64,000 nucleotides of DNA from Clostridiaceae bacterium (GTDB lineage Bacteria; Bacillota; Clostridia; Lachnospirales; Lachnospiraceae), in assembly GCA_910574345.1 (NCBI GenBank), contig CAJSZV010000008.1, positions 1 through 64,000 of the forward strand, read 5' to 3'. Both the position numbers and the translations under genes were made by a program. The notes under the pieces were generated by a model, which searched no databases, was not told where the DNA came from, and was given only the letters and a program-made list of their open reading frames with translations. The stretch's first letter is position 1. Each line of letters starts with the position of its first letter. This document shows, piece after piece, positions 13,294-47,885 of this stretch.

Positions 13294-13337
13294 GCTGTCT
13301 TAATTCTTCGTGGATTTTCCAAATCTGCGAAAGAAAA

Positions 13338-13706: not shown

Positions 13707-13733
13707 TTTCGCAGATTTGGAAAATCTGCGAAA
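13707..13733. repeat. 27-bp perfect palindrome at the right inverted repeat
   Basis: Arms TTTCGCAGATTT and AAATCTGCGAAA flank a GGA centre. The left repeat has the same right-hand arm but a degenerate left arm (TTCGTGGATTT). No T tract follows on either strand, so it is not a terminator; it looks like a protein-binding or recombination core site. Confidence 0.8.
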
Positions 13734-13809
13734 CTATAGGCCGGTATAGACAAAGGAAAACAGGAATAGGGAGTCAAAAGGATTTTGGTGAGAAATGGAG
13801 GGATCCATA

Positions 13810-18911: not shown

Positions 18912-20078
18912 ATGAATATAGCGTACATACCGGTCAGAGGTGGAAGCAAATCTATTCCCTTAAAAAACATTAGACCTATTAATGGTAAGCCGCTTGTATA
19001 TTGGACGGTTAAGGCCGCATGTGGCTGCAAATATATAGATAAAGTGTATATAGCGACTGACAGCGATAAAATTAAAGAAACTGTTGAATCTTTTAAGATG
19101 GGGATGCAGGCCGCGTTGTTTGCGAAGGCAGAAGTAATTGGGCGTTCGGGAGAATCAGCATCCGATACCGCTTCTACAGAGTTTGCAATGCTTGAGTTTG
19201 CCGGCAATTATGAGTTTGATAATATAGTCCTTGTTCAAGCCACATCTCCATTATTACAGACCACAGATCTTGACAGAGGCTTTGAGGTTTATAACGAGGA
19301 GGAAACCGACTCTGTTCTGTCAGTAGTTCGCCAGAAGCGTTTCCATTGGGGAAATGATGAGGCAGGTTTTTATCATCCTACAAACTATGATGTGTTTCAT
19401 AGACCTCGCCGTCAGGAGTTCGACGGATATTTTGTGGAAAATGGTGCATTTTATATTACTTCAAAAGAGGCCCTTATTAAGTATCAAAATCGTGTGTCTG
19501 GAAATATCAAAATTGTAGAGATGGACGAAGATACTTTTTTTGAAATTGATGAGCCAAGTGATTGGGTGATAATAGAGACTTTAATGAAAAGAAAAGGAAT
19601 ATCAGCGCCCATAGATGTTCCTGAAATCAGATTGTTTCTTACAGATTGTGATGGCTGCCTGACTGATGGAGGAATGTATTACTCTGAACATGGTGATGAA
19701 CTGAAAAAGTTCAACACTCGTGATGGCATGGGATTTAAGCTGCTTCGAGAGAAGGGAATTCTTACAGGAATAATTACCAGTGAGGATGTTGATTTAAACC
19801 GCAGACGTGCAGAAAAATTACGGCTTGATATTTTTGAATCTGGATGTACGGATAAGTTAAGCAGAATAACAGAAATTTGCAGCCGGAGGGGTATTAACTT
19901 AGAAAATGTTTGTTATGTAGGAGATGATATTAATGATGTGGATACACTTCGAGCAGTCGGGTATGGCTGTGCACCACAGGATGCTACGCCACAAGCCAAG
20001 GAGGCAGCTATATATGTAACAAATTCAAAAGGCGGAGAGGGTGTTATAAGAGAAATAGCAGAGAAATTACTGATTTAG
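18912..20078 (+). CDS. neuA: Bifunctional CMP-nonulosonate synthetase and KdsC-like phosphatase
   Basis: 388 residues. Residues 1-230: acylneuraminate cytidylyltransferase (IPVRGGSKSIPLKNIRPINGK in the CTP-binding loop, with conserved R, K and N). Residues 235-388: HAD-superfamily KdsC type (LTDCDGCLTDGG with the DxD nucleophile, TSEDVDLNRRRAEKL, YVGDDINDVDTL). The pair would remove a 9-phosphate and activate the acid with CTP, as animal CMAS and the Bacteroides KDN pathway do in separate or fused forms. No UDP-GlcNAc epimerase (NeuC) is in the locus, so the product could be KDN or use precursors from elsewhere (inference). Confidence 0.88.
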   Translation: MNIAYIPVRGGSKSIPLKNIRPINGKPLVYWTVKAACGCKYIDKVYIATDSDKIKETVESFKMGMQAALFAKAEVIGRSGESASDTASTEFAMLEFAGNYEFDNIVLVQATSPLLQTTDLDRGFEVYNEEETDSVLSVVRQKRFHWGNDEAGFYHPTNYDVFHRPRRQEFDGYFVENGAFYITSKEALIKYQNRVSGNIKIVEMDEDTFFEIDEPSDWVIIETLMKRKGISAPIDVPEIRLFLTDCDGCLTDGGMYYSEHGDELKKFNTRDGMGFKLLREKGILTGIITSEDVDLNRRRAEKLRLDIFESGCTDKLSRITEICSRRGINLENVCYVGDDINDVDTLRAVGYGCAPQDATPQAKEAAIYVTNSKGGEGVIREIAEKLLI

Positions 20079-20094
20079 ATGAGGAAACAGATTA

Positions 20095-21267
20095 ATGCAT
20101 TGTGTATGGAAGAATAGCAAAGCTTTATTTCAATATGCGTTATTATTTTTTATGATAGCTTATTGGCCTGCATGGCTTATAGGTCAGGGTGTAAGCCGGA
20201 TTCTTATACTTGCTATGTTATTTTTGTGGTTTGCATATAAGAAAAAAATATATGTATCCAGAGAAATGATCCTGATTCTTTTGGGATTACTTTTTTCGTA
20301 TTTTCTCTCAATGATCTTTGGGGGTATAAATATTCTCATAGATATTGGTAAGATATTATCAATTACCATCTGTTTTTTGTTTTGTGGATTGATGAGACGA
20401 GAAACATTTATAGAGCGTTATAAAAATTTGCTCTTCTTTATTACATGCTATTCATTGATTACGTTTGCTTTATTTTACCTTGCACCCTCAATATTTGACC
20501 ATCTTCCGATGATAGAAGGGACTGCACCAGTTGCAAATGCTTTTTTTTCACTTATACCGGTAACAATGAAGGAATATTTTCGTAATTTCGGGTGCTGGCA
20601 AGAACCTGGTATGTACTGTGTTTATCTTAGTGTTGCATTTGTTTTTGAACTGTTTTGTACCGATGAAGTAAAATTAAAAAGAATTTTAATAATCATATTA
20701 GCCTACATAACGACATTCTCTACATCGGGATATGTTGTTGGAGCAGTCCTCCTTATTACATTTGGAGCACGTCTGGTATTGGATAAAAAAGAAATGACCA
20801 AGAGATCGAGAAGAATTTATATGATATGGTTATTGATTGCAGTGGTCGGAATTCTCTATTCGTATTTCTTTGGGTTTCTATCGCAAAAAAATTATGTATT
20901 TTTAAAAATGCAAAGTGCAGGCCGCAATATTAAGTCAACGTCCTGGAGGCTGAGAGCAATTCGTATAGCTATTAATTTAATTAAGCAATATTTTCCCTTT
21001 GGGTCTGGTAGTGAAATTACAGCAGAGTATTTGATAGAAGGAACGATTCTAACAGCAACCCCATTAAATTGGTTTGCTTTTTATGGATTCCTTTTCGGAT
21101 TAATTATGAATCTTGGGATTATCTTTTTTTCCAAGAAGGTAGGAAAGCATTTAATTGTTTCACTAGGTATTTGGATAGCCTTAATTGGAGTTACTATGGC
21201 TCAAGAAATGTCTTGTACATATTTAATGCTGATTTTGGTATTTTATTCATTAAATATGAAGAAGTAA
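20095..21267 (+). CDS. wzy: Wzy-type polysaccharide polymerase / O-antigen ligase-like membrane protein
   Basis: 390 residues with about 11 membrane segments and one larger outer loop (about 140-175). That loop contains RNFGCWQEPGMYCVYLSV, matching the Rx-G-x-x-x-EPG pattern of O-antigen polymerases and ligases. It would join lipid-linked repeat units on the outer face of the membrane. Strongly AT-rich, like its neighbours. No rival polymerase is obvious nearby, although the large membrane proteins at 34.2 and 36.2 kb could be considered. Confidence 0.8.
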   Translation: MHCVWKNSKALFQYALLFFMIAYWPAWLIGQGVSRILILAMLFLWFAYKKKIYVSREMILILLGLLFSYFLSMIFGGINILIDIGKILSITICFLFCGLMRRETFIERYKNLLFFITCYSLITFALFYLAPSIFDHLPMIEGTAPVANAFFSLIPVTMKEYFRNFGCWQEPGMYCVYLSVAFVFELFCTDEVKLKRILIIILAYITTFSTSGYVVGAVLLITFGARLVLDKKEMTKRSRRIYMIWLLIAVVGILYSYFFGFLSQKNYVFLKMQSAGRNIKSTSWRLRAIRIAINLIKQYFPFGSGSEITAEYLIEGTILTATPLNWFAFYGFLFGLIMNLGIIFFSKKVGKHLIVSLGIWIALIGVTMAQEMSCTYLMLILVFYSLNMKK

Positions 21268-25783: not shown

Positions 25784-27109
25784 ATGCAGAAAGAAGATAT
25801 TGATATAAAATTCAAGAAAAATATAGTGTTTAGCATGATCGTGAAAGGTGCATCTGTTCTCCTTGGTCTTATCACTGTAAATATATACTTAAGATATCTG
25901 GGAAACTCAAATTATGGATTATGGATTACTATTTCATCAATTGCTTCATGGGCAGCCATGGGAGATCTGGGCATAGGAAACGGCTTAAGAAATGAGCTTG
26001 CTAAAGCATATGCAGATAAAGATATAAACAAACAGCAAGAACTTATATCCACAGCGATTATAGCGTTAGTTAAAGTTTCAACTGCTATATTTGTCATTTT
26101 GTCGGTGGTTTCAGAAATAATGGTTGCCTTTGGTGCACTTGAGGAAGAGGTAAGAATTCCACTATATATTACCAATGTCTTTATGTGTTTTAACTTTGTA
26201 TTAGGAATTTTTGCTTCTGTATCTCATGCATATCAGCTTAGCTATTATTCTTCTCTTTCGCAGCTGCTATATACGAGTCTGAATGTATTAGTTGTTTGGA
26301 TTCTGATTCTTACAGATATGCAATCAGATCTTATAATATTTGCAATAATAAATGGCCTGAATAACACAATAGCACATATATTTCTGATCATATTCGTTCT
26401 TCATAAAGTCAGGATATCTGTTAACTTAAGAAAAATTAATAAGTCATATATTAGGTCAGTCATGAGTATTGGAGGGCAATTTTTTTTATTACAATTATGT
26501 GGATTAGTTCTTTATTCCACTGATAATGTAATCATTAATGGATTATTTGGAAGCGAAGATGTTACAGTTTATTCTATAATTACCAAAGTGTTTAATACTG
26601 GGGAAACTTTGTTTTCGATTCTGTTAGTGAGCCTTTGGTCAGCTGTTACATATCAATATAATCTAAAAAATTATATGTGGATTGTTAGCAAAATAAAAAG
26701 CCTTATAAAAATTTGGAGATTATTTGCAATAGGAGTTATCGCCGTAGCCATATGGTTTAATCTGCTCATTAAGCTTTGGCTAGGAGATCAGGCGATAATT
26801 TACTCATGGGATATGATAGTTTTATTTGCTGTGTATAGTTTGGCAGGAACATTCGGAGCAATATTCATTAATGTTGCAAATGGAATAGGAATCATTAAGC
26901 TTCAATTAGTAATGGCAGTTGTTGAAGCTGTATTTAATATCCCATTATCTATCTTTTTGGCTCAAAATTGCGGAATGGGAATTATTGGTGTTAAAATCGC
27001 AACATTGATATGCTGCACAGGAGCAAATGTCATAATGCCGATTTATGTATGGGATTTCTTAAGAAAAAAAATGAATTGCCAGGACGGAGAGAAGAACAGA
27101 AAGGGGTAA
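25784..27109 (+). CDS. wzx: Wzx-type lipid-linked oligosaccharide flippase
   Basis: 441 residues with about 12-14 membrane helices. The N-terminus (FKKNIVFSMIVKGASVLLGL followed by RYLGNSNYGLWITISS and GDLGIGNGLRNELAKAYA) is the MOP-superfamily Wzx/RfbX signature. It moves the undecaprenyl-diphosphate-linked repeat to the outer face for the polymerase at 20095. Presence of Wzx plus Wzy indicates Wzy-dependent synthesis. AGAAGGG lies upstream of the ATG. It is a separate protein from the MATE exporter at 353. Confidence 0.88.
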   Translation: MQKEDIDIKFKKNIVFSMIVKGASVLLGLITVNIYLRYLGNSNYGLWITISSIASWAAMGDLGIGNGLRNELAKAYADKDINKQQELISTAIIALVKVSTAIFVILSVVSEIMVAFGALEEEVRIPLYITNVFMCFNFVLGIFASVSHAYQLSYYSSLSQLLYTSLNVLVVWILILTDMQSDLIIFAIINGLNNTIAHIFLIIFVLHKVRISVNLRKINKSYIRSVMSIGGQFFLLQLCGLVLYSTDNVIINGLFGSEDVTVYSIITKVFNTGETLFSILLVSLWSAVTYQYNLKNYMWIVSKIKSLIKIWRLFAIGVIAVAIWFNLLIKLWLGDQAIIYSWDMIVLFAVYSLAGTFGAIFINVANGIGIIKLQLVMAVVEAVFNIPLSIFLAQNCGMGIIGVKIATLICCTGANVIMPIYVWDFLRKKMNCQDGEKNRKG

Positions 27110-27115
27110 TAGGTT

Positions 27116-28018
27116 ATGAATGACACGATAAAATACAGCGTGATACATGGGGGGGGGGTAACACAACCTGACGTTCTTTATAATAGGTTTGATTTAAAGT
27201 ATGGAGATGATACTCAGGTGTTATGTTCATCAGCAGACATGCAATGGATGATTCCCCTTCATATAGATCATAGAACGGCATACCTTGGGTTATATCTTGT
27301 TGAGATTCCACAGTTTGTATTTGATGGTCTTATAAGGTTTGTTCTGAAGAGATACAAAAGAGTAGATAAGATCCGCTGTTTTTATAGTTTAAATAACTAT
27401 GAGGGACAGTTTTTACCATTTAACCATTATCGTGTAATATTGCCGAAGACAGAGGAAGAACTCTTTAGGAGAATGAATAAAAAAGGAAGATACAATCTGA
27501 CTAGAGAGAGACGGATGCTTGGCGAACTGGGGGAGGTTTTGTATCTTCATTATAGCGGTCCAGATATTCCGCCAGAGGCCATAAAACGATTTTTCGAGTT
27601 AAAGGAAAAAACCCACGGTTATAATCCGCATATGCGTAAGAACACATATGTGAAGGATGCTTGTATCAGTGATGTATATCTTGTGATGCTGGATAGGATG
27701 ATTATAGGAATTGCCCTTACATGCGAGCAGTGTGAGTGCGTCTATCTGGAGAATATCACTTACGATATGGACTATTCAAAGTATTCTGTTGGCTTTTCAT
27801 GCTATGAGTATTGTCTCAGCAAATTAATAGAAAAGCACAAGAAAGAGATTTTCCTTGGCGGCGGAGACCACGAATATAAGAAAAGATTTCATAGTATAGA
27901 AGAGACAGCATATTCAGGATCGGTTTATCGGAATCGATGGATAAAACTTAAATATGATAATTTGGTGCATTTTAAGGATGCTGTAAAGACAGCACTAAGT
28001 AAAATGGGATTGCGGTAG
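27116..28018 (+). CDS. GNAT/FemAB-like acyl- or aminoacyl-transferase containing an in-frame G10 tract
   Basis: 300 residues. The middle and C-terminal part (RMNKKGRYNLTRERRMLGEL, AIKRFFELKEKTHGYNP, MIIGIALTCEQCECVYLENI) matches the Acetyltransf_6 (CelD/BcsL-like GNAT) family, which acylates sugars or peptidoglycan precursors. Codons 11-14 are formed by ten consecutive G (27149-27158, H-G-G-G-V), in frame here, so the gene is ON. A change of one or two G would stop the protein after about 20 residues. Follows the flippase by 6 bp. Confidence 0.75.
   Translation: MNDTIKYSVIHGGGVTQPDVLYNRFDLKYGDDTQVLCSSADMQWMIPLHIDHRTAYLGLYLVEIPQFVFDGLIRFVLKRYKRVDKIRCFYSLNNYEGQFLPFNHYRVILPKTEEELFRRMNKKGRYNLTRERRMLGELGEVLYLHYSGPDIPPEAIKRFFELKEKTHGYNPHMRKNTYVKDACISDVYLVMLDRMIIGIALTCEQCECVYLENITYDMDYSKYSVGFSCYEYCLSKLIEKHKKEIFLGGGDHEYKKRFHSIEETAYSGSVYRNRWIKLKYDNLVHFKDAVKTALSKMGLR
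27149..27158 (+). repeat. Poly-G tract, 10 G, in frame
   Basis: Ten G in an AT-rich neighbourhood, near the 5' end of the GNAT gene. Tracts of this length are hypermutable by slipped-strand mispairing in known contingency loci. Confidence 0.95.
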
Positions 28019-28061
28019 GGGAATATAATAGTTTGACAAATAGTCATAGGGAGTGGATAGA

Positions 28062-28982
28062 ATGAAATTAGAAATGAATTTTGACAAAACCTTTTTTGAC
28101 GAAGAAATACGCTGTGAGTATATGGTTAGTCAAAAGCAGAAAAAAATTTGGGCGTGCGAACTTGATTTGGCAAATAAGCTGCTCTATGTATGTAACAAGT
28201 ATGATATAAGAATTATCGGGTATGCAGGCACAATGCTTGGTGCAATAAGACATAAGGGGTTTATACCATGGGATGATGATATGGATTTTTGCATGCTGCG
28301 AAACGATTTCTATAAACTTCTTGAAATTGCAGATAAAGAGTTTCAGAATCCCTATTTTTTTCAGACGGCCTTAAGTGATAGAAGATATTTTTGTGGTTAT
28401 GGGAGGTTAAGGAACAGTACTACAACAGCAATAATCGAAGGGCAGGATGAAAACTATAACAATGGCATCTATATTGATATATGGGTTATTGATGGATTAA
28501 TAGATGATGATAAACTTTTTAGGAATCAAATAAAGGATAGAGACTTTGCAAACCGCTTAGCAAAATTGTTTCTGCCATTAAGAAGCGGCAATTCTGTCTT
28601 ACGTAAAACGGTTAAAACAAGCTTGCGGATGATTCTGTCGTTGGTGACTAATTATGAGGATTCGGTAAAGAGATACTGGAATGTTCTGGAACGGTATAAC
28701 AAGACAGCAGACAAATTTACTCTTATGACACATCCTCTTGATGTGATTAAGAAGTACTGGATTGCCAGGGAGAATTTAGAAAAACTAATACTTGTACCTT
28801 TCGAAAATATTATGATTCCGGTTCCACAGAATTATGACCAGATACTTAGCACAATATATGGCGATTACATGAAATTTCCTCCCGTGTCGGAGCGGGGAAA
28901 ATGGCATGAAGGGCAGATCGTATTTGAACCTGATATTCCATATACTGAATATTACAGGAAAAAGAAATCTAATGAAAATTGA
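28062..28982 (+). CDS. LicD-family phosphotransferase
   Basis: About 306 residues. It has the LicD core: GYAGTMLGAIRHKGFIPWDD followed by DMDF, with the acidic DDD(M)D metal site, then FFQTALSDRRYFCGYGRLRN and GIYIDIWVIDG. LicD proteins transfer a phospho-alcohol (classically phosphocholine, from CDP-choline) onto a sugar. Here the donor is probably made by the four genes that follow. GGGAG 8 nt before ATG 28062 decides the start. Confidence 0.87.
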   Translation: MKLEMNFDKTFFDEEIRCEYMVSQKQKKIWACELDLANKLLYVCNKYDIRIIGYAGTMLGAIRHKGFIPWDDDMDFCMLRNDFYKLLEIADKEFQNPYFFQTALSDRRYFCGYGRLRNSTTTAIIEGQDENYNNGIYIDIWVIDGLIDDDKLFRNQIKDRDFANRLAKLFLPLRSGNSVLRKTVKTSLRMILSLVTNYEDSVKRYWNVLERYNKTADKFTLMTHPLDVIKKYWIARENLEKLILVPFENIMIPVPQNYDQILSTIYGDYMKFPPVSERGKWHEGQIVFEPDIPYTEYYRKKKSNEN

Positions 28983-28990
28983 GGATGGAA

Positions 28991-29791
28991 ATGAGAAATC
29001 AACAACATTTTGCTTTTAATATATGGGATTTTGAATCAGCAAAGGCTGTAATGGATGGTGCCGCTTTTCTGAAACAAGATGTCATTTTGCAGACCTCCGC
29101 CGGTATTTTCAGAAAGCTGCCGGCGAGGATATTTTCTGATTTTGTAAAAAAGTATTCAGAGTTTAGAGGAATTCAGGCATGGCTTAACCTTGATCACTGC
29201 CGGGAAAAGGAAATGCTTTTTTCAGCAGTGGATAACGGATGGGATATGATTATGGCTGACGGTTCATCTATGCCTTTGGATCAAAATATAGCTTTTGCGA
29301 ATGAAGTGACTGTTTATGCTCATTCCCATGGTGTACTGGTGGAGGCTGAAGTCGGTCAGGTGAGAGGGATTGAGGATGAGGTGATGGTACAGCAGGAGGG
29401 GATAGCATCAAGAGATGCTATAGAGAAGTTCCTTATATCTACAAATGTTGATTTCATTGCTGTGGCTTTTGGAAATGCACATGGAGATTATAAGGTTGCG
29501 CCTAATCTTCGCTATGATCTTGTGGAGTATACCACATCCATTATAGACAAGCCCTTTGTTGTCCATGGAGGAAGCGGATTATCGGATCAAGTATTGACGA
29601 GGCTGCTTGAAATGAAAGGCGTAAAAAAGCTGAATATCTCGACAGACCTTAAGAGAGCATACAAAAAGGGAATGGAAAAGTCGGTTCATAACTGGACCCA
29701 GCCCGTAAAGGTGTCAGAGATCATCCACGATGAGATCATGACTGTGGCGATATCGAAGATGAAGCTAATAACTTTCGGAGGAAGCGAGTAA
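28991..29791 (+). CDS. Class II (zinc) ketose-bisphosphate aldolase-like protein
   Basis: About 266 residues of a FbaA/GatY/KbaY-type barrel. Visible motifs: WLNLDHC (catalytic Asp and first Zn His), EAEVGQVRGIEDE, AFGNAHGDYK (second Zn His), FVVHGGSGLSD (third Zn His and phosphate loop) and LNISTDLKRAYKKGM. The full metal set is kept, so it should be active in cleaving or forming a ketose phosphate with dihydroxyacetone phosphate. Shorter than glycolytic FBA, closer to tagatose/other-ketose enzymes. Its place between LicD and an FGGY kinase suggests a dedicated biosynthetic role. GAGG 6 nt before ATG 28991. Confidence 0.85.
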   Translation: MRNQQHFAFNIWDFESAKAVMDGAAFLKQDVILQTSAGIFRKLPARIFSDFVKKYSEFRGIQAWLNLDHCREKEMLFSAVDNGWDMIMADGSSMPLDQNIAFANEVTVYAHSHGVLVEAEVGQVRGIEDEVMVQQEGIASRDAIEKFLISTNVDFIAVAFGNAHGDYKVAPNLRYDLVEYTTSIIDKPFVVHGGSGLSDQVLTRLLEMKGVKKLNISTDLKRAYKKGMEKSVHNWTQPVKVSEIIHDEIMTVAISKMKLITFGGSE

Positions 29792-31317
29792 TGAATGTAT
29801 TAGTGCTGAACATGGGAATGAAAAGTATACGGAGTATCATCTTCGATGAAAATGGAAAGAAATTGTCCAGCGCCTCCAGAACACTGACATCGGCAATCAA
29901 TGAAACAAGGGTTGAACAGTATCTGGATGAATGGTGGGAGAAGGCAATGGAGGTTATGAAAGTTTCTATTCAAGATGGGAAACTTAGGGACATTGATTAC
30001 ATAACCGCAACAACTTCGGCTTCTTGTCTTGCGTGTATAGATAGTGATGGAAATCCTCTTGGTAATGCGATCATGGTTTCTGACAAGAGAGCTATGGCTG
30101 AAGCTGACGAAATAAAGCATAGTGTATCCTATGAGGATTTAGAGAAAGACACAGGACTGGAAATGTCAGCCAGTTTGATGCTGCCAAAGATCCTCTGGGT
30201 TAAGAACCATGAACAGGATTTGTTTGAGAAAACAAGATATTTTTTAACACCCAATGATTATTTGATTTATCACTTATGCGGAAATGTGGTTACAGATGAA
30301 CTCAATGCATTAAAGTATCACTACTCTCTTAATAGAAATTCCTATCCGGTCGGGCTTCTTGACGAATTGGGAATTTCAAAAGATAAGCTTCCAGCTGTAA
30401 TGAAAACGGGTGATGTGGCAGGAACAATATTACCGGAGATTGCGAAAAAGATAGGATGCCAGAAGGAGGCAAAGATTGTGATAACCTCTTATGATGCCAT
30501 CTGTTCTTTTGTTGGCAGCGGGGTATCAAGTGAAGGAGAGGCAAGTGATGTTTCCGGTACTGTGACTGTCTTTCGAATGCTTAGCAGGAAGGATAAATTG
30601 TTGCCAAGTACCAGGGTATATACCACACCATTCAGACAAGGTGGTTTTAACATTATCGGCGGCTCCAACAATCTTGGAGGCGGACTAATCGAGTGGGTAA
30701 AGCAATGTTACTATGCGAAAGAAGAATATCCATACGAAGTTATGGAAAAGGAGGCAGCAGAATCGGATATCGGTGCAAGAGGCATCATTTTCTTACCATA
30801 TCTTCTCGGTGAGCGCGCTCCGATTTGGAATGACAATGCCAGAGGAACATTTTTCGGCCTTGAGAGAATGCATACAAGAAAGGATATGACTAGGGCAGTA
30901 TTTGAAGCGGCTGCATTTATAGACCGTACTATGATGGAGGCTATCGGAGAAACGTCTGCTCATGTGACCACAGTGAGACTGTCCGGCGGACTTGCCAGAG
31001 TCAATCTGATCTCTCAGATCAAAGCAGATGTGACCGGAAAAGAGGTGATTGTACTGTCTGAATTTGAGACAACTGCATCGGGGGCGGCTATGATGGTATT
31101 GAATGGGCAGGAGGGAACTACATTTACGGAGTTAGCAAAGAAATTCTCAAAAAGCCGTATGACAATCCATCCAGACATGGAAAACCGTGAGAAATATAAT
31201 GTGGTTTATAAGCTCTTTAAAGAAACATATCAACAGTTAGTACCGATGTTTGACAGAAGAATTGAACTGTTAGACACAATCCGAAATCCGAAAGAAACAC
31301 AGATAGAAAATTTATAA
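29791..31317 (+). CDS. FGGY-family carbohydrate kinase
   Basis: 508 residues of the xylulokinase/glycerokinase superfamily, overlapping the aldolase stop (TAATG). N-terminal actin-like domain with MGMKSIRSIIFDENG, YLDEWWEKAME, SDKRAMAEADEI; C-terminal domain with GGSNNLGGGLIEW and LGERAPIWNDNARG and the FGGY signature-like TTVRLSGGLARVNLISQIKA split over two blocks. Phosphorylates a sugar, polyol or ketose with ATP. The first glycine-rich strand is 'LVLNMGMKSIRSIIFD' rather than the usual LGIDxGTTS, so the substrate pocket is unlike textbook members. Confidence 0.85.
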   Translation: MNVLVLNMGMKSIRSIIFDENGKKLSSASRTLTSAINETRVEQYLDEWWEKAMEVMKVSIQDGKLRDIDYITATTSASCLACIDSDGNPLGNAIMVSDKRAMAEADEIKHSVSYEDLEKDTGLEMSASLMLPKILWVKNHEQDLFEKTRYFLTPNDYLIYHLCGNVVTDELNALKYHYSLNRNSYPVGLLDELGISKDKLPAVMKTGDVAGTILPEIAKKIGCQKEAKIVITSYDAICSFVGSGVSSEGEASDVSGTVTVFRMLSRKDKLLPSTRVYTTPFRQGGFNIIGGSNNLGGGLIEWVKQCYYAKEEYPYEVMEKEAAESDIGARGIIFLPYLLGERAPIWNDNARGTFFGLERMHTRKDMTRAVFEAAAFIDRTMMEAIGETSAHVTTVRLSGGLARVNLISQIKADVTGKEVIVLSEFETTASGAAMMVLNGQEGTTFTELAKKFSKSRMTIHPDMENREKYNVVYKLFKETYQQLVPMFDRRIELLDTIRNPKETQIENL

Positions 31318-31330
31318 CAGGGAGATAGCA

Positions 31331-32446
31331 ATGAAGGCCTATACGTTAACGATGACTACGAGAACATATTTTGGCAACAGATGTGTGGAAGAGGCAGTTA
31401 AGAAAGAGAAACAAACTTTAGGAGATAAGCCCCTCCTTATTACTACAGGCGGAGTCCTAAAACAGCTTGGATTTCTTGATGAAATGATCTGCTGGTTGGA
31501 TGCAGAAGTTATCTGTTATGACAAAGTAACTGCTGATCCTGATGTTATGGAAATAAGAGAAGCTGTAAAAATTGGAAAAGAATGTGGTGTTTCTTCTGTA
31601 ATCGGTTTTGGCGGCGGCAGTGCTATGGATGCTGCGAAAGCTGCAGCAGTCGGCATCGCTTCTGATATTGATATAGAAGATTATTTGCTTAAGAACATAA
31701 TCCCTCCAGAAGAAACACTGCCTATTATTGCGATTCCGACAACATCGGGAACTGGAGCAGAGCTAAGTAAAGGCGCTATTATTTCCAGTCGCGAAAAAAA
31801 AATCAAATCAGGTATTCGGGGAGAAAGAGTAACTCCCATTGTTGCGATTGTAGATCCGACATATACATTTTCACTTCCTATGAATATAACAATGGAAACA
31901 GGATTTGATGTGTTTACTCATGCGGCAGAGAGCTACTGTTCAGTAAATGCCAATCCATTTTCCGAGATGCTTTCTGAAAAGGCCATAAGAATAGTAGGTG
32001 AGGCTTTGCCCAGATTAAGTAAGGACTTAAAGGATACCCAAGCACGTGAAATGATGAGTTTTGCCAGCCACATCATGGGCTTCAATGTGAAAAACATAGG
32101 AAATTGTCTGCCTCACCGTCTTCAGTATCCAATCGGTATATCAACAGAAACAAGTCATGGGGCTGGGCTGGCTGCTTTGTATCCTGCATGGATGAAATAT
32201 GAGCAAAATGTAAACGAGGAACGCATAAACAGAATCTTGGATTGGCTTGGATGCAAAAAAGAAGATCATGCCGGTGAAAGGATAAAAAAATGGTTGGATA
32301 ATCTGAATCTTTCCAGAACCATGGCAGACCTTGGGAACACCCTGACTGCAGATGTCCTTGCAGGAAAAGTTACGGGAAATCTGAAAAATGACAAGCTGGC
32401 TGATGAAGAAGGGATCATTGTCAAATTGTATCAGGAGTCCATGTGA
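31331..32446 (+). CDS. Iron-containing (group III) alcohol dehydrogenase
   Basis: 371 residues. N-terminal NAD(P) half with FGGGSAMDAAKAAAVG and IPTTSGTGAELSKGAII. The C-terminal metal half keeps all ligands: ETGFDVFTHAAESY (Asp and His), NCLPHRLQYPIG (His) and TSHGAGLAALYPAW (His). It interconverts an aldehyde/ketone and an alcohol. It lies 13 bp after the kinase and 18 bp before a cytidylyltransferase, so it likely reduces an intermediate to an alcohol that is then phosphorylated/activated (inference). GGGAG 8 nt upstream. Confidence 0.87.
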   Translation: MKAYTLTMTTRTYFGNRCVEEAVKKEKQTLGDKPLLITTGGVLKQLGFLDEMICWLDAEVICYDKVTADPDVMEIREAVKIGKECGVSSVIGFGGGSAMDAAKAAAVGIASDIDIEDYLLKNIIPPEETLPIIAIPTTSGTGAELSKGAIISSREKKIKSGIRGERVTPIVAIVDPTYTFSLPMNITMETGFDVFTHAAESYCSVNANPFSEMLSEKAIRIVGEALPRLSKDLKDTQAREMMSFASHIMGFNVKNIGNCLPHRLQYPIGISTETSHGAGLAALYPAWMKYEQNVNEERINRILDWLGCKKEDHAGERIKKWLDNLNLSRTMADLGNTLTADVLAGKVTGNLKNDKLADEEGIIVKLYQESM

Positions 32447-32464
32447 TGGGAAGGGGGAAAAATC

Positions 32465-33187
32465 GTGCAAGCAATTATAATGGCGGCTGGAAAAGGAAGC
32501 AGATTGGGAAGTTTGACTGAAAATATTCCAAAGAGCCTGCTTGAAATCAAAGGAAAGAAATTATTGGATATCAATATCGCAATGCTTCACAAGTATGGTA
32601 TCTGGGACATTACAATAGTTACAGGATACCAGGATGAAAAGTTTATCCAAGTAACGGAAGATATTCCTGGAATAACCCTTGTTTACAATCCGTTCTATGA
32701 ATTTACCAATGTTATCGGATCTTATTACATGGGAATGAAGCAGCTGCATGAGGATTTTATTTATCTGCATGCTGACACCATATGCGAAATTGGTATTTTT
32801 GATGAATTATTAAGGTCTGATGGGGATATTGTGCTGCCCATTGATACAAAACCTTGTGACGACGAGGCAATGAAAGTACGGATTGAAAAGGGAAAAATTG
32901 TAGATATCACGAAGCAGATGCCTGTCGAAGATGCTGCCGGCGAGTTTATTGGTATTGCCAAGATTAAGAAAAGTGTGATCGATGATCTGAATGCAAGCAC
33001 CATAGGTGTTCTTAGGGATAAAATCTTCTCATCCTACTTTGAAGGCGCCCTCCAAAGGGTGTTTGACATGAAAAAGTATGATGTGCGGATGATTGAAACT
33101 AAAGGCAGATTCTGGGGTGAAGTGGATTTCCTGGAGGACTATGAAAGAGCCAAGAAAAATATCAGTGCAGAATTATTAGAATTATAA
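32465..33187 (+). CDS. LicC/PntC-like nucleotidyltransferase
   Basis: 240 residues. MQAIIMAAGKGSRLGSLTENIPKSL is the NTP-binding P-loop (G-x-G-x-R plus PKS), with YNPFYEFTNVIGSYY and HADTICE, then DDEAMKVRIEKGKIVDITK and EFIGIAKI. These are features of LicC-type cytidylyltransferases, which make CDP-choline or CDP-like phospho-alcohols for LicD. GTG start with a G-rich RBS. Together with LicD and the three enzymes between them it forms a self-contained donor-synthesis set; the activated group is unknown. Confidence 0.85.
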   Translation: MQAIIMAAGKGSRLGSLTENIPKSLLEIKGKKLLDINIAMLHKYGIWDITIVTGYQDEKFIQVTEDIPGITLVYNPFYEFTNVIGSYYMGMKQLHEDFIYLHADTICEIGIFDELLRSDGDIVLPIDTKPCDDEAMKVRIEKGKIVDITKQMPVEDAAGEFIGIAKIKKSVIDDLNASTIGVLRDKIFSSYFEGALQRVFDMKKYDVRMIETKGRFWGEVDFLEDYERAKKNISAELLEL

Positions 33188-33201
33188 AGGAAGAAGGCAA
33201 G

Positions 33202-34246
33202 ATGTTAGAGCAGGTCATTATCATACCATCATATCAACCATCGGAATCACTGATTTTATTTGCAAAGAATTTGACGGATAGTTTCAATAAAATCATAGTC
33301 GTAGATGACGGAAGTGGGTGGGAGTATAAAGATATTTTTCAGAAGATTGAAAATATTGCGGGAATAACAGTACTGCGGCATGCAATGAATCAGGGGAAGG
33401 GGAGAGCAATTAAAACAGCTTTTAATTATTGCCTGAACTGTAGTAACTTTTGTGATCGGGGGGGGGGTAATAACCGTAGACGGAGATGGTCAACATGTGA
33501 TAGAGGATATAAAAAATGTTGCTGTTGTCCTCTCCGATTCAGATGAAAATTCAATTGTCCTTGGAGTCAGGAAATTTGATAAGAAGCATGTTCCTTTTAG
33601 GAGCAGATTTGGAAATAATGTTTCAAAGGTCATTTACAGATATGCATGCGGAATTAATGTAACAGATACACAAACAGGACTGAGAGGGTTTCATTACAGT
33701 CAGATTCCGCTTATGCTTTCTGTTGAAGGAGAAAGGTATGAGTATGAGACGAATATGCTTATCTCATTCAAAGATCATGCATTTAAAATCATAGAAATAC
33801 CCATACAAACCATTTATGAGGAGGGGAATAAGTCGTCGCATTTTAATCCTATCACAGACTCTATAAAGATATATCGTGTGGTATTAAAGTATAGCGCTGC
33901 CTCTGTGTTGTCATTGCTGATTGATTATGGAATGTTTGTTATTCTTGTGTCATGGGGCATTTCTATAATAAAAGCGACATATATTGCAAGAGCATGTTCA
34001 TCAATAGCAAACTTTCTTATTAACAGAAGCGTTGTATTCAGGAATAAGGGAGATATCCGTTTTCAGTTTATTAAATACATACTGTTGGCAGCTGCATCGG
34101 CCACAGTTTCCGGAGTTGTTGTGAATTTGCTTTATTCTTATGTTGGTATCTATCCGGCAGCATGCAAAATAGTGGTAGATACTATGCTGTTCTTCTTGAA
34201 CTATTACATACAAAGAACATTTGTATTTACTAAGGAGGAAGAATAG
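33202..34246 (+). pseudogene. GT2-GtrA fusion glycosyltransferase, frame-shifted (phase OFF) at a G10 tract
   Basis: Residues 1-85 run from TTG/ATG 33202 as a DPM1-type GT2 (VIIIPSYQPSESL, IIVVDDGSGWE, NQGKGRAIKTAFNY). Ten G at 33458-33467 then throw the frame, giving a stop at 33546. The correct continuation is in the other frame to 34246: GVITVDGDGQHVIEDI (DxD-like motif), SRFGNNVSKVIYR and DTQTGLRGF, then a four-helix GtrA domain (LSLLIDYGMFVILV to FLNYYIQRTFVFT). With nine G the two halves join perfectly as CDRGGVITVDGDGQH. GT2 plus GtrA would charge and flip an undecaprenyl-phosphate sugar for the membrane protein encoded next. Confidence 0.85.
33458..33467 (+). repeat. Poly-G tract, 10 G, one too many
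   Basis: Located just before the DGDGQH motif of the GT2-GtrA gene. Frame analysis: 9 or 12 G restore the full protein; 10 gives a truncated product. Confidence 0.95.
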
Positions 34247-34247
34247 G

Positions 34248-36107
34248 GTGATATCGTTATTACTATTTGCAATTGCTATTGGATCAGTTTGTGTATTTGG
34301 GGCATTGGTATGTCAAAAGAAGTTTGGGTATATGTTTCCTATCGGAACGGCATTGGTAATTATTGTATTGCTGATCTTTGGATTTTTCAATCGGCTTCAT
34401 TTGGGAGTCTATGCTGTACTGATATATTCGATAACCCTTATGATAGTATCTATCTTGGTATTGATAAAGAATAAAAATATTGCCCGGCTTCGTCTGCTCT
34501 TCAATCCGGTCTGTTTCATCATGTGCACGGCAGGGGCCGGACTTGCATATCTTCACAATGCCAGGCTGTGCAGCGGCTTTGATGAATTTACCCATTGGGC
34601 AACGGTTGTAAAATCCATGACCATAATCCATGATTTTAGTGCTAACAGAGCGTCAGGATTATTGTATCAGAACTATCCTCCATCCATGTCTTTGTTCCAG
34701 TATTTCTTGGAAGTATTGGCAATTGATTTCCAGGGAATTGAGTTTAGCGAATGGAGATTGTTTTTTGCATATCAGATTTTACAATGGTCTTTTTTTTGCC
34801 CAATACTTGAACTTGCCATGGAGAAAAAAACAGGAAAAAAGGCCATAATTCCGGTACTGTGTTTGTCATTCATTGTGGTTCCGGCTTTTTTCTATGAGAA
34901 CTATCTGACCAGCATTTATATTGATCAGTTCATTGCGATACTTTATGCATGCTGTGCAGGTGACATTCTTTTGAATCCCAATAGAGATGTGACATTTTGG
35001 ATGAGAGTATCATTTGGAATGGTGGTAATCGGTCTTGCAAAAGCAACAGGCATCCTTTTTGCAGCCTCTATAGCAATTTTGAGTATAGTGGATACTCTTA
35101 GCTGTTTTAGAACGTTTGATGCTGATAAAAAGATCAGAGCGATTTGGGGATATTTACGAAAGCCGATTATTGCTATGATTCCAATCGGTGTATTTAAATT
35201 CCTATGGAACCGGGAATTAGTGATTGAACACTCAAATGTGTCGCTAAATTCTGTAGATGTTAGCAAGTTCCTTTTGGATGCCTTTCAGAGAGGAGAAAAT
35301 TATTCTAAAGAAGTTCTGAAAAAGTATGGAGACAAAATCTTTTCAAATGAGTTTGTTTTTGGAACTACAGGAATCAATTTGAGTTATTTCTCACTATTTA
35401 TAATTGCAGCGATTTTGCTTGCACTTTTTTTAAAGAAACTTAGGAACCCAAGAGGTGACTGGTGGGTTTTAATTGGGACATCTTTTGTATATATATTAGG
35501 GCTTGCGGCTACTTATGCAACAAGTTGGGATACAGAAGGATATGGAGCAACTCTCCCCTCTTTTGACAGATACTATTTTATCTCTCTTTGCGGGATATAT
35601 TTAATCGCTTTGATTTTATTTTTGTTTGTATCACAATGGGAGAGATATGCAATAGTTTTGGCGGTATCCTTAATTTGTATAACAGATCAAAATGAGTTAA
35701 TGGATTTCTTTTCACGTCAGTCTGTTATCGTATCGAGAGATTTCAGAAGAGCTGTAGATGACCTTGTTGTAAGAATTGATGAGATAATACCAGCAGGCAG
35801 AGTTCTTTTTGCCTGTGATCGGCTGCAGGATGGGTGGATGATTAACTTTGATTCCATGTATTTTAATGGGAAACGAGTGGCAAGTTATAATACATCTACT
35901 AATTTTGAAGAGTATATGGTGGATGGGACATTTTCTGAATCCTTTTACGATAATTATGATTATGTGGTCTTTTCGGGACTTTCTGATGGATTCAAGAGTA
36001 AGTACAAGACCTATGTGGAAGATGAGGATTTGAGAAGCTACTCATTATATGAGGTAGATAAAACATCCGGAAATATCAGCTTCATCATGGATTTCTCAAA
36101 AAAGTAA
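34248..36107 (+). CDS. Large polytopic membrane protein, GT-C-like (paralogue A)
   Basis: About 619 residues with 12 or more membrane segments and a soluble C-terminal domain of about 110 residues (DDLVVRIDEIIPAGRVLFACD to the end). The first large loop reads CSGFDEFTHWATVVKSM then QNYPPSMSLFQYF; the acidic DE pair in this position is typical of GT-C membrane glycosyltransferases using polyprenyl-phosphate sugars. It directly follows the GT2-GtrA gene (AGGAGG 9 nt before GTG 34248, overlapping region), so I infer it is the GtrC-like transferase of that module. A paralogue follows at 36178. Family assignment is by pattern only. Confidence 0.65.
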   Translation: MISLLLFAIAIGSVCVFGALVCQKKFGYMFPIGTALVIIVLLIFGFFNRLHLGVYAVLIYSITLMIVSILVLIKNKNIARLRLLFNPVCFIMCTAGAGLAYLHNARLCSGFDEFTHWATVVKSMTIIHDFSANRASGLLYQNYPPSMSLFQYFLEVLAIDFQGIEFSEWRLFFAYQILQWSFFCPILELAMEKKTGKKAIIPVLCLSFIVVPAFFYENYLTSIYIDQFIAILYACCAGDILLNPNRDVTFWMRVSFGMVVIGLAKATGILFAASIAILSIVDTLSCFRTFDADKKIRAIWGYLRKPIIAMIPIGVFKFLWNRELVIEHSNVSLNSVDVSKFLLDAFQRGENYSKEVLKKYGDKIFSNEFVFGTTGINLSYFSLFIIAAILLALFLKKLRNPRGDWWVLIGTSFVYILGLAATYATSWDTEGYGATLPSFDRYYFISLCGIYLIALILFLFVSQWERYAIVLAVSLICITDQNELMDFFSRQSVIVSRDFRRAVDDLVVRIDEIIPAGRVLFACDRLQDGWMINFDSMYFNGKRVASYNTSTNFEEYMVDGTFSESFYDNYDYVVFSGLSDGFKSKYKTYVEDEDLRSYSLYEVDKTSGNISFIMDFSKK

Positions 36108-36177
36108 AAATATACAATATAAAAAGCCGTAAATAATTTGTATTGCAATGATAATGGAAAGAATGAGGGCGTAAAAA

Positions 36178-38112
36178 GTGCTAATCAATATCATATATTT
36201 CATTTCAATATGTTCGGTAAGCATACTGCTTGCTGCAATAAAACACATAAAATTTGAGACAACGCTACCATTATCATCTGCATGTATTATCGGGATTATG
36301 TATTTGTTTGCCTTGCTTGGAAAACTTCATGCAGGATATTATTTTGTATTATGTTTTGCGGTGTTCGCATTTGCCCTTGGCTGTATACTTTTTATGCGAG
36401 ATAAGTCGATAGTCAAAAACCTTATCTTATCACCAGGAACGATTCTCTTTTTTGCTTCTTTCACAGTTATGAATATATGCTGCAATGGAATGAAAGTATT
36501 TTCAGGAGATGAACTTGTACATTGGGGTGCCATAGTAAAGTCCATGATTTTTACCCATGACCTCGGTACAAGAAATGCAACTACATTGACCGCCAGTAAT
36601 TATCCGCCAGGAGTGTCTGTTCTTCAGTATTACTGTGAGGAAATTTTTCAGATGTTTCGTGGTCAGTATGCTTTTAGTGACTGGCGTCTTTTTCTGGTAC
36701 ATAACACTTTGATTGCCTGTTTTATCATACCTGTGTCTTGCAAAATAGGAAAAAAATTTTTAAAATCTTCGTTCATCTATATGTTGTTTTCTTGTTTGGG
36801 AATATTACTTTACAGGAATTTCTTCTATTCACTGCAGATTGATGGCCTGATTGGAGTTGCAAGTGCGTGCGGCATATGCATGATTTTTTTATCGGATAGC
36901 AATGACATAGAGGCTGATATATATAGTTTCTCAGTGGCTTTTATTCTCGTTCTGACGAAAGTATCAGGGATTCTATTTTCAATCGTTATACTTTTGGGGA
37001 TGCAACGAAATAGATTTTACAAACAACGTCAGGAAGGGCGTCTTGTTTCTCCAAATAAGAAAACTATTTTTATGCAAGGGATTGAAATTGTTACAATTAT
37101 TGGTATATGGCTTTCATGGAAAATTGAAACATCACTGTCAAACAAGATGCCTGCCAACGAAAAGCCTGTAGATTTGCGGTACTTATTGAGAATTATGTTT
37201 GGAAAAGACAATACATATAGAACAGAAACTTGGAATAATTTTCTAATATCCGTTTTTCATAAGGGCATTGAATTTTCGAATATAAATACTAAATTAAGCT
37301 ATTTTTTTATACTTGTCTGCTGTATAACCATTATTATTGTAATTTCCAAGAGACTAAGGAGGACCGAAAATTCTAAGGCACAATCAGGAACTTTATGCCT
37401 GTGTCTGTCGCTTATACAAATGCTTATATTTTATATGGGGATGCTCTTTACTTATCTTTTTCAATTTGGCGAAGACCAATCGGTTTCACTTAGCAGCTTT
37501 GAAAGATATTTCAATACGGCTTTGATGCCGATTTTGTTTTTAACAGTTACATCCATACTGTACCTGATAAAATCATCAGGGAAGGAAGCAATCTCTGACT
37601 GGTCGGTGTTGGTCATAGGATTCCTAATATCTGTGGCTCCTTTTAACGGGATTATTACATTCCTTTCAAGAGACGATGCTAAATATACGATAGAATATGT
37701 TGAAGGTTTTCAAGACTTAATAGATCTGGAGAAATCAGTTCATGTAGATGGAGAAATCAACAATATTTATTATATTTATCAAGATGTGTATATAAGCGGC
37801 GCAGGGCAAACTGCCCTTGAATTATACTATTATGCACTCCCTGATGAGAGCACATATGCAAAAGAACCATTTTATTTATCGAAGAGTGTAAACGATTGGT
37901 ATGTGGGGGATTTTGATGTTGATGAATGGATGAGAAGGCTCAAAGAATCATATGACTATGTGGTGATTGCTAAGACTGATGAATACTTTTTGAATAATTT
38001 TGCTTCTGCGTTTGAGGATCCTAAAAAGATATATGACAAAACAATATATCAGGTTAATAAAGAAGACGGGAGGCTAAGCTTTCTAAAATCCTGCAGTGAT
38101 ATGATGAAATAG
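36178..38112 (+). CDS. Large polytopic membrane protein, GT-C-like (paralogue B)
   Basis: 644 residues, same architecture as the preceding gene: FSGDELVHWGAIVKSM and ASNYPPGVSVLQYY match its SGFDEFTHWATVVKSM and QNYPPSMSLFQYF, and both end with a soluble domain closing in a VxKxxGxxSF-type tail (YQVNKEDGRLSFLKSC versus YEVDKTSGNISFIMDF). This is a clear tandem duplication with strong divergence. The module partner is the GT2-GtrA gene downstream (38156), giving mirrored order A-pair, B-pair. Starts at GTG 36178 with GAGGG about 8 nt upstream. Confidence 0.65.
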   Translation: MLINIIYFISICSVSILLAAIKHIKFETTLPLSSACIIGIMYLFALLGKLHAGYYFVLCFAVFAFALGCILFMRDKSIVKNLILSPGTILFFASFTVMNICCNGMKVFSGDELVHWGAIVKSMIFTHDLGTRNATTLTASNYPPGVSVLQYYCEEIFQMFRGQYAFSDWRLFLVHNTLIACFIIPVSCKIGKKFLKSSFIYMLFSCLGILLYRNFFYSLQIDGLIGVASACGICMIFLSDSNDIEADIYSFSVAFILVLTKVSGILFSIVILLGMQRNRFYKQRQEGRLVSPNKKTIFMQGIEIVTIIGIWLSWKIETSLSNKMPANEKPVDLRYLLRIMFGKDNTYRTETWNNFLISVFHKGIEFSNINTKLSYFFILVCCITIIIVISKRLRRTENSKAQSGTLCLCLSLIQMLIFYMGMLFTYLFQFGEDQSVSLSSFERYFNTALMPILFLTVTSILYLIKSSGKEAISDWSVLVIGFLISVAPFNGIITFLSRDDAKYTIEYVEGFQDLIDLEKSVHVDGEINNIYYIYQDVYISGAGQTALELYYYALPDESTYAKEPFYLSKSVNDWYVGDFDVDEWMRRLKESYDYVVIAKTDEYFLNNFASAFEDPKKIYDKTIYQVNKEDGRLSFLKSCSDMMK

Positions 38113-38155
38113 GAATATATATTTTGAGGGAGTCATAACAGGGAAGGAGATAATC

Positions 38156-39206
38156 GTGATTGAAGACATTACTATAATGATTCCGGCATATAATCCGGAT
38201 AATAAATTCATAGAGTTTGTATCGGATTTGACAGAGAACGGATACAAAATCATTATAATCGATGATGGGAGTCGTGATGATACTAAAAGGTATTTTGATA
38301 TGGCAAGAGATCAATATGGCTGCAGGGTTGTCTCCCACAGCATTAATTTAGGGCAGGGGAGAGCCTATAAAACGGGTTTTAACTACTATCTATCCGAGTC
38401 AAAATGGGGGGGGGCAGTTTTCAGATTCCATAGGAGTGATACAATGTGATTGTGACGGACAGCATTGTGTAGAGGATATTAACCGCTGCACAAAGCTGCT
38501 TCGCTCCAATCCTGACAAATTCATCTTAGGCGTAAGGGATTTTTCTGATAAGGATATTCCTTTGCGAAGCAGATTTGGAAATAACAGCACTTCAATTGTC
38601 TTTAAGCTTTTTTGCGGTCTGAATCTGAAAGATACACAAACCGGATTAAAGGGAATTCCGAAGTCATTTATACCATGCCTGATGGAAACGCCAGGGGAGA
38701 GATTTGAATATGCAAGCAGTGTCTTGTTGGAAACCAAAAGGAAAGGAGTTGAAATTCTTCAGTTCCCAATAAGAACAATTTATATCAATGAAAATGAAAC
38801 GTCGCATTTTAGTCCCATGAGGGATTCTATAAGGATATATTCTCTGATATTAAAATATCTTGCATCATCTTTATCAGCATTTTTAGTTGATATTATTGCA
38901 TTCAGCTTTTTTTTATCAGCAGCGAAAGGACTTTTCATACATAATTATATAATTATATCGGCATATTTATCGAAAATTATATCTTGCACATATACATATG
39001 TTGTTAATAAAAATCTGGGTTTTAAACGAAAGAATGGTAATATATGGGCAATTGCTAAATATACAGCTTTATATATAGGACAAGCAACTGCTTCAGGCTT
39101 TTTAACATATACATTAGTAAGTGTTATGAATCTGAATGAAGTGATCAGTAAAATAATCGCAGATATATTTTTATTTTTTGTCAGCTTTCGGATACAAGAC
39201 AGGTAG
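38156..39206 (+). pseudogene. Second GT2-GtrA fusion glycosyltransferase, frame-shifted (phase OFF) at a G9 tract
   Basis: First part: TIMIPAYNPDNKFIEF, IIIIDDGSRDD, NLGQGRAYKTGFNYY. Nine G at 38406-38414 shift the frame, giving a stop at 38449. The other frame continues QFSDSIGVIQCDCDGQHCVED, RSRFGNNSTSIVFK and DTQTGLKGI, then GtrA helices up to 39206. With eight (or eleven) G the product is one GT2-GtrA protein like the gene at 33202. The tract sits at the equivalent position, just ahead of the D-C-D-G-Q-H motif. Both paralogues are therefore off by the same +1. Confidence 0.85.
38406..38414 (+). repeat. Poly-G tract, 9 G, one too many
   Basis: TGG GGG GGG CAG (8 G) would read W-G-G-Q-F and keep the gene open; nine G are present. 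Confidence 0.95.
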
Positions 39207-39248
39207 GTTTTTAGACAAAGCAGAAAGAACGTGTGAATATGGAGGATA

Positions 39249-39896
39249 ATGGTGGAAGAAACTTTATATATCGTGATGCCGGCATATAATGAAGAAGAAA
39301 CGATTGAAAATGTGATAAAAGGATGGTATCCGTTATTAAATGGGAAGGCAGAAACATCACGGCTTGTGGTAGCAGACAGCGGGAGCACGGATAAAACACA
39401 TATGATTCTGGCAAAGTTACAGGAAAATTATTCTAAATTAGAAATCCTATCGGACACCGGAAAACAGCATGGGCCTAAGCTGATGAGATTATATGATTAT
39501 GCAATAAAAAAAGAAGCAGATTATATATTTCAAACAGATTCAGACGGGCAGACATCACCAGAAGAATTTGATGCTTTTTGGGAGGAACGGCTTAAGTATG
39601 ATGGAATATTTGGAAAACGAAGTATCCGGGGGGATGGAAAAGCAAGATCATTTATAGAGAAAGTTGCTTGTATTTTAGTAAAAATATACTTTAACGTATC
39701 TATTCCGGATACTAACGCTCCATTTCGATTGATGAAAACGGATACGATAAAAAAATATCTTTATAATTTGCCAGATGATTATAATTTGCCTAATATCATG
39801 TTAACTGCATATTTTTCGTATTATGGAGAAACTGTTCTATTTAAGGAAATATCTTTCAAACAGAGGCAGGGGGGTATAATTCGATTAATATTTTAA
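39249..39896 (+). CDS. Family 2 glycosyltransferase, C-terminus out of frame at a G6 run
   Basis: 215 residues as read: YIVMPAYNEEETIENVI, LVVADSGSTDKTH, FQTDSDGQTSPEEFD (DxD-like), GKRSIRGDGKARS, PDTNAPFRLMKTD. It ends abruptly after FKQRQGG. The missing family tail (N-S-I-N, ILKIIGIGWRALGDFRVFRK) is present in another frame up to a TGA at 39965-39967. With 7 instead of 6 G at 39869-39874 the protein would read QRQGGYNSINILKII and reach 39967 (about 239 residues). The catalytic domain is nearly complete, so partial activity is possible. GGAGG before ATG 39249. Follows the second GT2-GtrA gene by 42 bp. Confidence 0.8.
   Translation: MVEETLYIVMPAYNEEETIENVIKGWYPLLNGKAETSRLVVADSGSTDKTHMILAKLQENYSKLEILSDTGKQHGPKLMRLYDYAIKKEADYIFQTDSDGQTSPEEFDAFWEERLKYDGIFGKRSIRGDGKARSFIEKVACILVKIYFNVSIPDTNAPFRLMKTDTIKKYLYNLPDDYNLPNIMLTAYFSYYGETVLFKEISFKQRQGGIIRLIF
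39869..39874 (+). repeat. G6 run at a frame break
   Basis: Short run where the GT2 reading frame is lost by -1. Six-G runs also occur in core genes here, so this is weaker as a switch than the G9/G10 tracts. Confidence 0.6.
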
Positions 39897-47864: not shown

Positions 47865-47885
47865 GAGCGCAAAAAGGAGGGAAAA

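Follow-up and report, generated by a model that had tools for sequence, protein, structure and literature searches.

Poly-G tracts as candidate contingency sites in recombinase-headed surface-glycan loci of a Clostridiaceae bacterium

The window analysed here is a stretch of 64,000 nucleotides (positions 1 to 64,000 of contig CAJSZV010000008.1, assembly GCA_910574345.1) from a Clostridiaceae bacterium placed by GTDB in Lachnospiraceae. It carries a polysaccharide locus extending from 13795 to about 42575, with a tyrosine recombinase gene at its head and long runs of G inside several of its genes. Besides the recombinase, the locus encodes a hexapeptide transferase, several glycosyltransferases, NeuB, a cytidylyltransferase-HAD fusion, Wzy-like and Wzx-like proteins, Acetyltransf_6, LicD, a class-II aldolase, an FGGY kinase, Fe-ADH, a nucleotidyltransferase, two GT2-GtrA genes, large proteins without a Pfam match, a GT2 and a GT87. 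The genome that holds the window (G000) comprises 5.6 Mb in 106 contigs, with 97.02% completeness and 3.27% contamination. Its contigs are designated C plus a number; G001, G010, G012, G015 and G018 are congeners.

A scripted run scan of the window recovered the G tracts of 10, 10 and 9 bases in three genes and the G6 run at the frame break of a fourth gene (Table 1), all of which had been reported in the original prediction. The same prediction saw no further run of eight or more, and the scan found none even of seven or more; it returned three other G6 runs (39628–39633, 57826–57831 and 61013–61018) and one run of C6. Long G tracts in or just before coding sequence were above chance: the G9 pattern matched at five overlapping positions in the window, versus a mean of 0.87 and a maximum of 4 in 100 dinucleotide-preserving shuffles.

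According to the frame analysis, the tracts sit where the reading frame is decided. The acetyltransferase gene is open across its tract. In both GT2-GtrA genes the frame is lost exactly at the tract, as first proposed: the GT2 half reaches a stop shortly 3' of it, and the DxD-type motif and GtrA domain are encoded by a second half that stays open in a different frame. A third GT2-GtrA paralogue in the same genome is intact and has no G run. In the fourth gene, the GT2 open reading frame (ORF) stops just past the G6 run and the expected tail lies in another frame; a homologue from the same genome (L010, 42% identity, 203 aa; the only one found among the fetched loci) has no G run and reads on.

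Table 1. Features of the polysaccharide locus and its leader, in window coordinates.
Feature	Position	Strand	Evidence or remark
Distal inverted site of the putative recombinase pair	13307..13332	-	perfect 20-base core common with 13707-13732
Proximal near-palindromic site adjoining the recombinase gene	13707..13732	+	partner 374 bases away
Tyrosine recombinase (Phage_integrase), locus head	13795..14691	+	PF00589, E 3.7e-13
NeuB-family synthase	18026..18901	+	PF03102, E 3.1e-67
Cytidylyltransferase fused with HAD-type phosphatase	18912..20078	+	PF02348, PF08282
Wzy-like polymerase	20095..21267	+	PF04932, 30.8 bits, slightly below the curated cut-off of 31.7
Wzx-like flippase	25784..27109	+	PF01943, E 2.4e-10
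Acetyltransf_6 (GNAT-type) gene, open across tract	27116..28018	+	PF13480, E 5.6e-11; frames
G10 tract, codons 12-15 of the acetyltransferase gene	27149..27158	+	run scan
LicD-family gene	28053..28982	+	PF04991, E 1.6e-39
GT2-GtrA gene 1, first half	33202..33546	+	PF00535, E 7.3e-8; GT2 profile positions 2-77 of 168
GT2-GtrA gene 1, second half, DGDGQH and GtrA membrane domain	33452..34246	+	PF04138, E 1.2e-15
G10 tract, frame break of GT2-GtrA gene 1	33458..33467	+	run scan, frames
Large membrane-type protein without Pfam match	34221..36107	+	resembles tract-bearing gene G000 C1:99218 by eye
GT2-GtrA gene 2, first half	38156..38449	+	PF00535, E 1.3e-11; GT2 profile positions 1-76 of 168
G9 tract, frame break of GT2-GtrA gene 2	38406..38414	+	run scan, frames
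GT2-GtrA gene 2, second half, CDCDGQH and GtrA domain	38436..39206	+	PF04138, E 5.4e-9
GT2 gene (fourth gene), frame broken near 3' end	39249..39896	+	PF00535, E 4.7e-11
G6 run at the frame break of the fourth gene	39869..39874	+	too short for a contingency tract on its own

Across the whole genome, 47 G runs of exactly seven bases, 15 of exactly eight and 20 of at least nine were counted (overlaps merged), with the G7 runs evenly split by strand (23 and 24). Clustering, defined as a neighbour within 7 kb, was compared with random placement on one 5.6 Mb line that ignores contigs. Eleven of the 20 tracts of G≥9 were clustered versus 0.92 expected, the largest value in 20,000 simulations being 8, as were 16 of the 35 tracts of G≥8 (2.8 expected). 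The G7 control showed no clustering, with 5 of 47 runs versus 5.1 expected. Homopolymers were also compared in 13 stretches of this genome, a break being scored when ORFs lay on both sides and the frame was broken at the run. Such breaks were seen at 7 of 24 G≥8 runs (L011, one of the seven, is possibly a gene junction), at 1 of 18 A≥8 runs (window position 49990, a gene junction by its coordinates) and at none of 14 T≥8 runs. Frame breaks are largely specific to G runs.

Tract-bearing genes act on surface structures in 20 of the 35 cases, an assignment to glycan-type genes or loci made partly by eye; 10 of these tracts lie in open genes, 8 in broken ones, and 2 have an unclear state (C1:85016 and C3:49654). 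Twelve of the 20 have a Pfam match, one of them below cut-off. The families are Acyl_transf_3 (five sites), GT2-GtrA (two), hexapeptide transferases (two, including the match below cut-off), a short-chain dehydrogenase, an NTP-transferase/SIS protein and Acetyltransf_6. The eight tracts without a Pfam match (C1:85016, 99218, 133885 and 134528; C10:52092, 56207 and 57283; C3:49654) were placed by neighbours or resemblance, and outside the window the neighbours of tract loci were mostly read by eye. The 15 tracts elsewhere include the starts of CbiD and prolyl-tRNA synthetase, an MT-A70 gene, a site close to the start of a 1632-codon ORF that matched no Pfam family, antisense sites and sites outside clear ORFs.

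The recombinase gene at the head of the locus has nine paralogues elsewhere in the genome (52–60% identity), making ten in all, and eight of the ten are followed, on the same strand and within 35 kb, by a G≥8 tract. The original prediction had described the tracts as a property of one surface-glycan locus; they are present there, but the restriction to that locus did not survive the genome-wide comparison. Within the same distance lie 20 of the 35 tracts versus 1.1 expected (the CbiD tract is one of the 20) and 1 of the 47 G7 runs. The 35 kb limit was set after inspection of the data, and limits of 15 to 40 kb take in 8 to 21 of the 35 tracts. At E≤1e-50, the recombinase was found in 3 of 26 genus genomes and, among 298 family genomes, in this one alone; the family search, which assessed no more than seven candidates in each genome, recovered 7 of the 10 own paralogues and is therefore an under-count. 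The candidate of a family-wide recombinase system was dropped on this result.

A near-palindrome, TTTCGCAGATTT-centre-AATCTGCGAAA, adjoins the recombinase gene, with an inverted partner 302–374 bases farther out. Recombinase genes adjoining inverted sites with identical centres were found in the window and in 5 of the 10 own leaders (C8, C16, C1:105690, C11 and C10). These five have inverted-pair scores of 20 or 21, that is, perfect inverted cores of 20–21 bases, and the two centres of a locus agree with each other but not with those of other loci. Across 40 shuffles of each leader the highest score was 14, and across 20 control regions it was 10. Such locus-matched, locus-specific centres are what one would expect of recombinases that each invert their own leader. 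In contig C1, the leader and its two sites are duplicated as a direct repeat, 679 bases apart, 5' of the recombinase at C1:105690 (C1:104819–105523, L256).

Other findings count against leader inversion. The remaining five own leaders are without this pair: C19 scores 17 with a different sequence and four score 9–10. At C1:79186 the near-palindrome is present and its partner was not found in the leader. Nine recombinase loci were available from congeners, one of them cut by a contig end, and the same pair occurs in 1 of the other 8 leaders (G001:C65, score 19); two have different, shorter pairs scoring 15 and five score 10, these values being given without shuffle control. The five own leaders that carry the pair are homologous and all in one orientation, and the leader segment contains one weak promoter-like match, below the shuffle mean of 2.0.

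The state of the tracts was then compared among relatives. For GT2-GtrA gene 1, the best 80 of 220 relatives of 33452–34246 in named genomes were used, a search that may omit records from the window's own or a very near genome. The closest homologues of this second half were mostly Lachnospiraceae records. The nearest of the 80 (L043, 51% identity) carries an in-frame G9 at the same codon, which is read through, before a DADGQH motif. An MBOAT gene of G001 (L274, PF03062) has a G9 inside a WHGA-W-WG stretch and is open; a gene of G010 (L036) with the same stretch, its identity read by eye, has a G9 there and is broken. Differing states at the same site in related genomes were thus found at two sites, MBOAT in G001 versus G010 and GT2-GtrA in L043 versus the window. 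GT2-GtrA occurs in 5 of 26 genus genomes, and at E≤1e-20 gene 1 homologues were found in 3 of 299 family genomes, this genome among them; the loci of the other two contain no G run of seven or more. G9–G10 tracts were also seen near the 3' end of similar ORFs in L026, L040 (G018) and L039 (G015), the ORFs ending at differing distances past the tract.

G9 runs are present in 204 of 298 family genomes and 17 of 26 genus genomes. Some of the pattern counts at family and genus level include overlapping positions, and they are inflated by very long G runs in some family genomes, likely artefacts. Probable assembly artefacts of this kind lie at G189 C49:17917–17970, G189 C65:159655–159689 and G115 C17:48954–48976. 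The family survey sampled 80 regions with 83 tracts of G≥9, drawn from some of the matching places, excluding those close to a contig start and those at the end of the list. The longest stop-to-stop piece was on the G strand at 55 tracts and on the other strand at 28. Pieces of at least 240 nt were available at 70 of the 83 tracts and were tested against Pfam; the other 13 were dropped. The commonest family was Acyl_transf_3 (6 of 70), and the other families displayed (25 of 49 families are shown) had one or two members each, regulators and housekeeping genes included. The G7 control (19 pieces from 20 of 47 sites) gave single-member families, one of them a polysaccharide flippase. In other genomes, G8–G11 runs were seen just 5' of TATAAT-like boxes (L139:1493, L141:1487 and L142:1492, in minus-strand coordinates, and L088:9 and L099:8341); two of them directly follow a TTGACT box, as in promoter-spacer phase variation.

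In our assessment, the G8–G11 runs in the glycan genes are very probably slipped-strand contingency tracts, perhaps combined with a recombinase layer. This explanation is favoured because open and broken genes stand side by side and because clustering is seen for long G runs but not for G7 runs. The contingency reading of the original prediction gains support from the comparison, namely from the clustering, the G-specific breaks, L043 and the MBOAT states, and the switching itself is what we infer from them. Slipped-strand mispairing at replication would alter tract length, and each cell lineage would then have some glycan-modifying genes readable and others cut short. The window would show one such state: the acetyltransferase is readable, and both GT2-GtrA glycosyltransferases are cut as they might be in an off phase. 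The cut GT2 halves should be inactive, since they stop short of the DxD-type motif and the GtrA domain, and in this clone the polymer would be decorated by the acetyltransferase, whose gene is open. Leader inversion may set whole loci, with G tracts varying individual polymer decorations. For this fuller scheme, a two-layer surface-glycan phasome with about ten loci under a private recombinase, at least half of them with private inverted sites, and poly-G switching of single glycosyl- and acyltransferases, we see the chances for and against as roughly equal.

Several observations weigh against tract-based switching. Tract lengths come from one assembly, from which slippage, inversion and glycan effects have to be inferred, and length variation was not observed. 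The longest G run around the site is at most five bases in 79 of the 80 gene 1 homologues, and the same-genus orthologue of GT2-GtrA gene 2 in G012 (63% and 56% identity by half) is intact with no run. The original prediction had named homologues without G runs at these sites as contrary evidence; these 79 and the G012 orthologue are of that kind, but the nearest gene 1 homologue is not. Taken together with the run in that nearest homologue, they make the tract look like a derived feature gained in a narrow group. The shortness of the G6 run in the fourth gene also counts against switching, and at C3:182185 the downstream ORF has its own acyltransferase domain, so that the break may reflect two genes. 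G001 has eight recombinases of this type; with the 35 kb limit, 1 of its 6 tracts of G≥9 falls in a locus headed by a recombinase, namely in the MBOAT gene. The other five are in a broken DUF1796 gene, at two very large ORFs (1779 and 990 codons), at an untyped ORF and outside any listed ORF. The coupling of tracts to recombinases is therefore best supported in the window's own genome alone. In the family as a whole, G9 runs show no clear tie to glycan genes, and a family-wide enrichment in glycan genes was dropped as a candidate; the strong claim about glycan tracts holds for this genome. Finally, 3' of the locus lie a radical-SAM/TRAM (MiaB-type) gene, then a MutS gene with all five MutS domains (Pfam), followed by a gene that we presume from its position to be MutL. 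Functional mismatch repair usually reduces mononucleotide slippage, and in view of this effect a MutS gene just downstream of the locus is a contrary point. The state of MutS and the presumed MutL (45213–50015) matters for the same reason.

Other explanations of the broken genes have to be set beside contingency switching. Sequencing or assembly errors at G homopolymers could make intact genes appear broken: G tracts are hard to sequence, a single assembly is at hand, and in Bifidobacterium breve annotated G-tract lengths differed from deep counts, as summarised in PMC9187656. Errors of this kind may account for broken frames, but not for the existence and clustering of long G runs or for the in-frame G9 at the same codon in L043, and A and T runs are without comparable breaks; we regard this explanation as improbable. 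Slippery runs also act on RNA polymerase and ribosomes, which PMC3711429 states for poly-AT and which we extend to poly-G. Transcriptional slippage or programmed frameshifting would then yield some full-length protein in every cell from unchanged DNA. Such recoding would favour one fixed tract phase, but here the frames are mixed, and the MBOAT site, with its differing states in G001 and G010, speaks against it; we hold it to be slightly less probable than sequencing error. The least probable of the three is that the broken genes are decaying pseudogenes and the G runs incidental mutation hot spots. The intact, run-free orthologue of gene 2 and the break of the fourth gene at a mere G6 fit decay; both halves of each GT2-GtrA gene are nevertheless open apart from the tract, and with half of the assigned glycan tracts in open genes the runs are not markers of decay.

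A further alternative concerns the recombinase layer only. Mobile glycan cassettes could use the inverted sites for attachment or excision, in which case the sites would not be the ends of an invertible leader. The shared orientation of the five leaders, the module spread suggested by ten paralogues and the directly repeated C1 leader agree with mobility, but the sites are in inverted orientation, have in common the locus-specific centre that an inversion would need, and lie just a few hundred bases apart. We consider cassette mobility possible, though on the unlikely side.

Among the remaining features of the locus, consecutive LicD, class-II aldolase, FGGY kinase, Fe-ADH and nucleotidyltransferase genes (28053–33187) perhaps together make an unusual decoration, a phospho-polyol or something similar. 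Rfam gave no match in the window at gathering scores.

In the literature searched (titles and abstract openings, with few subscription papers or preprints), we found no report of poly-G phase variation in glycan loci of Lachnospiraceae or Clostridia. A 2025 review describes multi-locus phase-variable genomes as seemingly restricted to pathogens, with possible database bias (PMC11868660), and mentions invertible promoters in C. difficile. The genome described here makes that question testable. If the contingency explanation is true, cells of one clone of a gut Clostridia member come to differ in their surface glycans, which would affect phage sensitivity, host recognition and the tracking of strains; a two-layer system, if true, would make this surface variation combinatorial. 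Poly-G switching of glycan genes is of a known kind; its occurrence in recombinase-headed Clostridia loci would be new.

The best-known cases of poly-G phase variation come from pathogens among the epsilon-proteobacteria and the neisseriae. In Bacteroides, invertible polysaccharide promoters are driven by recombinases. In Campylobacter jejuni, cgtB has an intragenic poly-G tract in a surface-glycan gene, where length heterogeneity truncates the protein (as summarised in PMC6437147), and Cj1295 is described as a poly-G contingency gene (PMC3068675). The present tracts likewise lie inside surface-glycan genes; in contrast to C. jejuni, for which length heterogeneity has been shown, they are putative contingency sites read from one assembly, the host is of Lachnospiraceae type with a MutS gene, and most tracts are in recombinase-headed loci. 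The sortase-pilus G-tracts of B. breve, whose slippage was measured (PMC9187656), offer the parallel of a gut commensal with a G tract between two frames. There, however, the genes encode pilins in one or two clusters per genome, whereas here many glycan enzymes of one genome carry tracts. The Bacteroides loci are similar in that several polysaccharide loci are headed by inverted sites; unlike them, the loci described here each appear to have their own tyrosine recombinase and site centre, with putative inversion of the leader and G tracts inside the genes.

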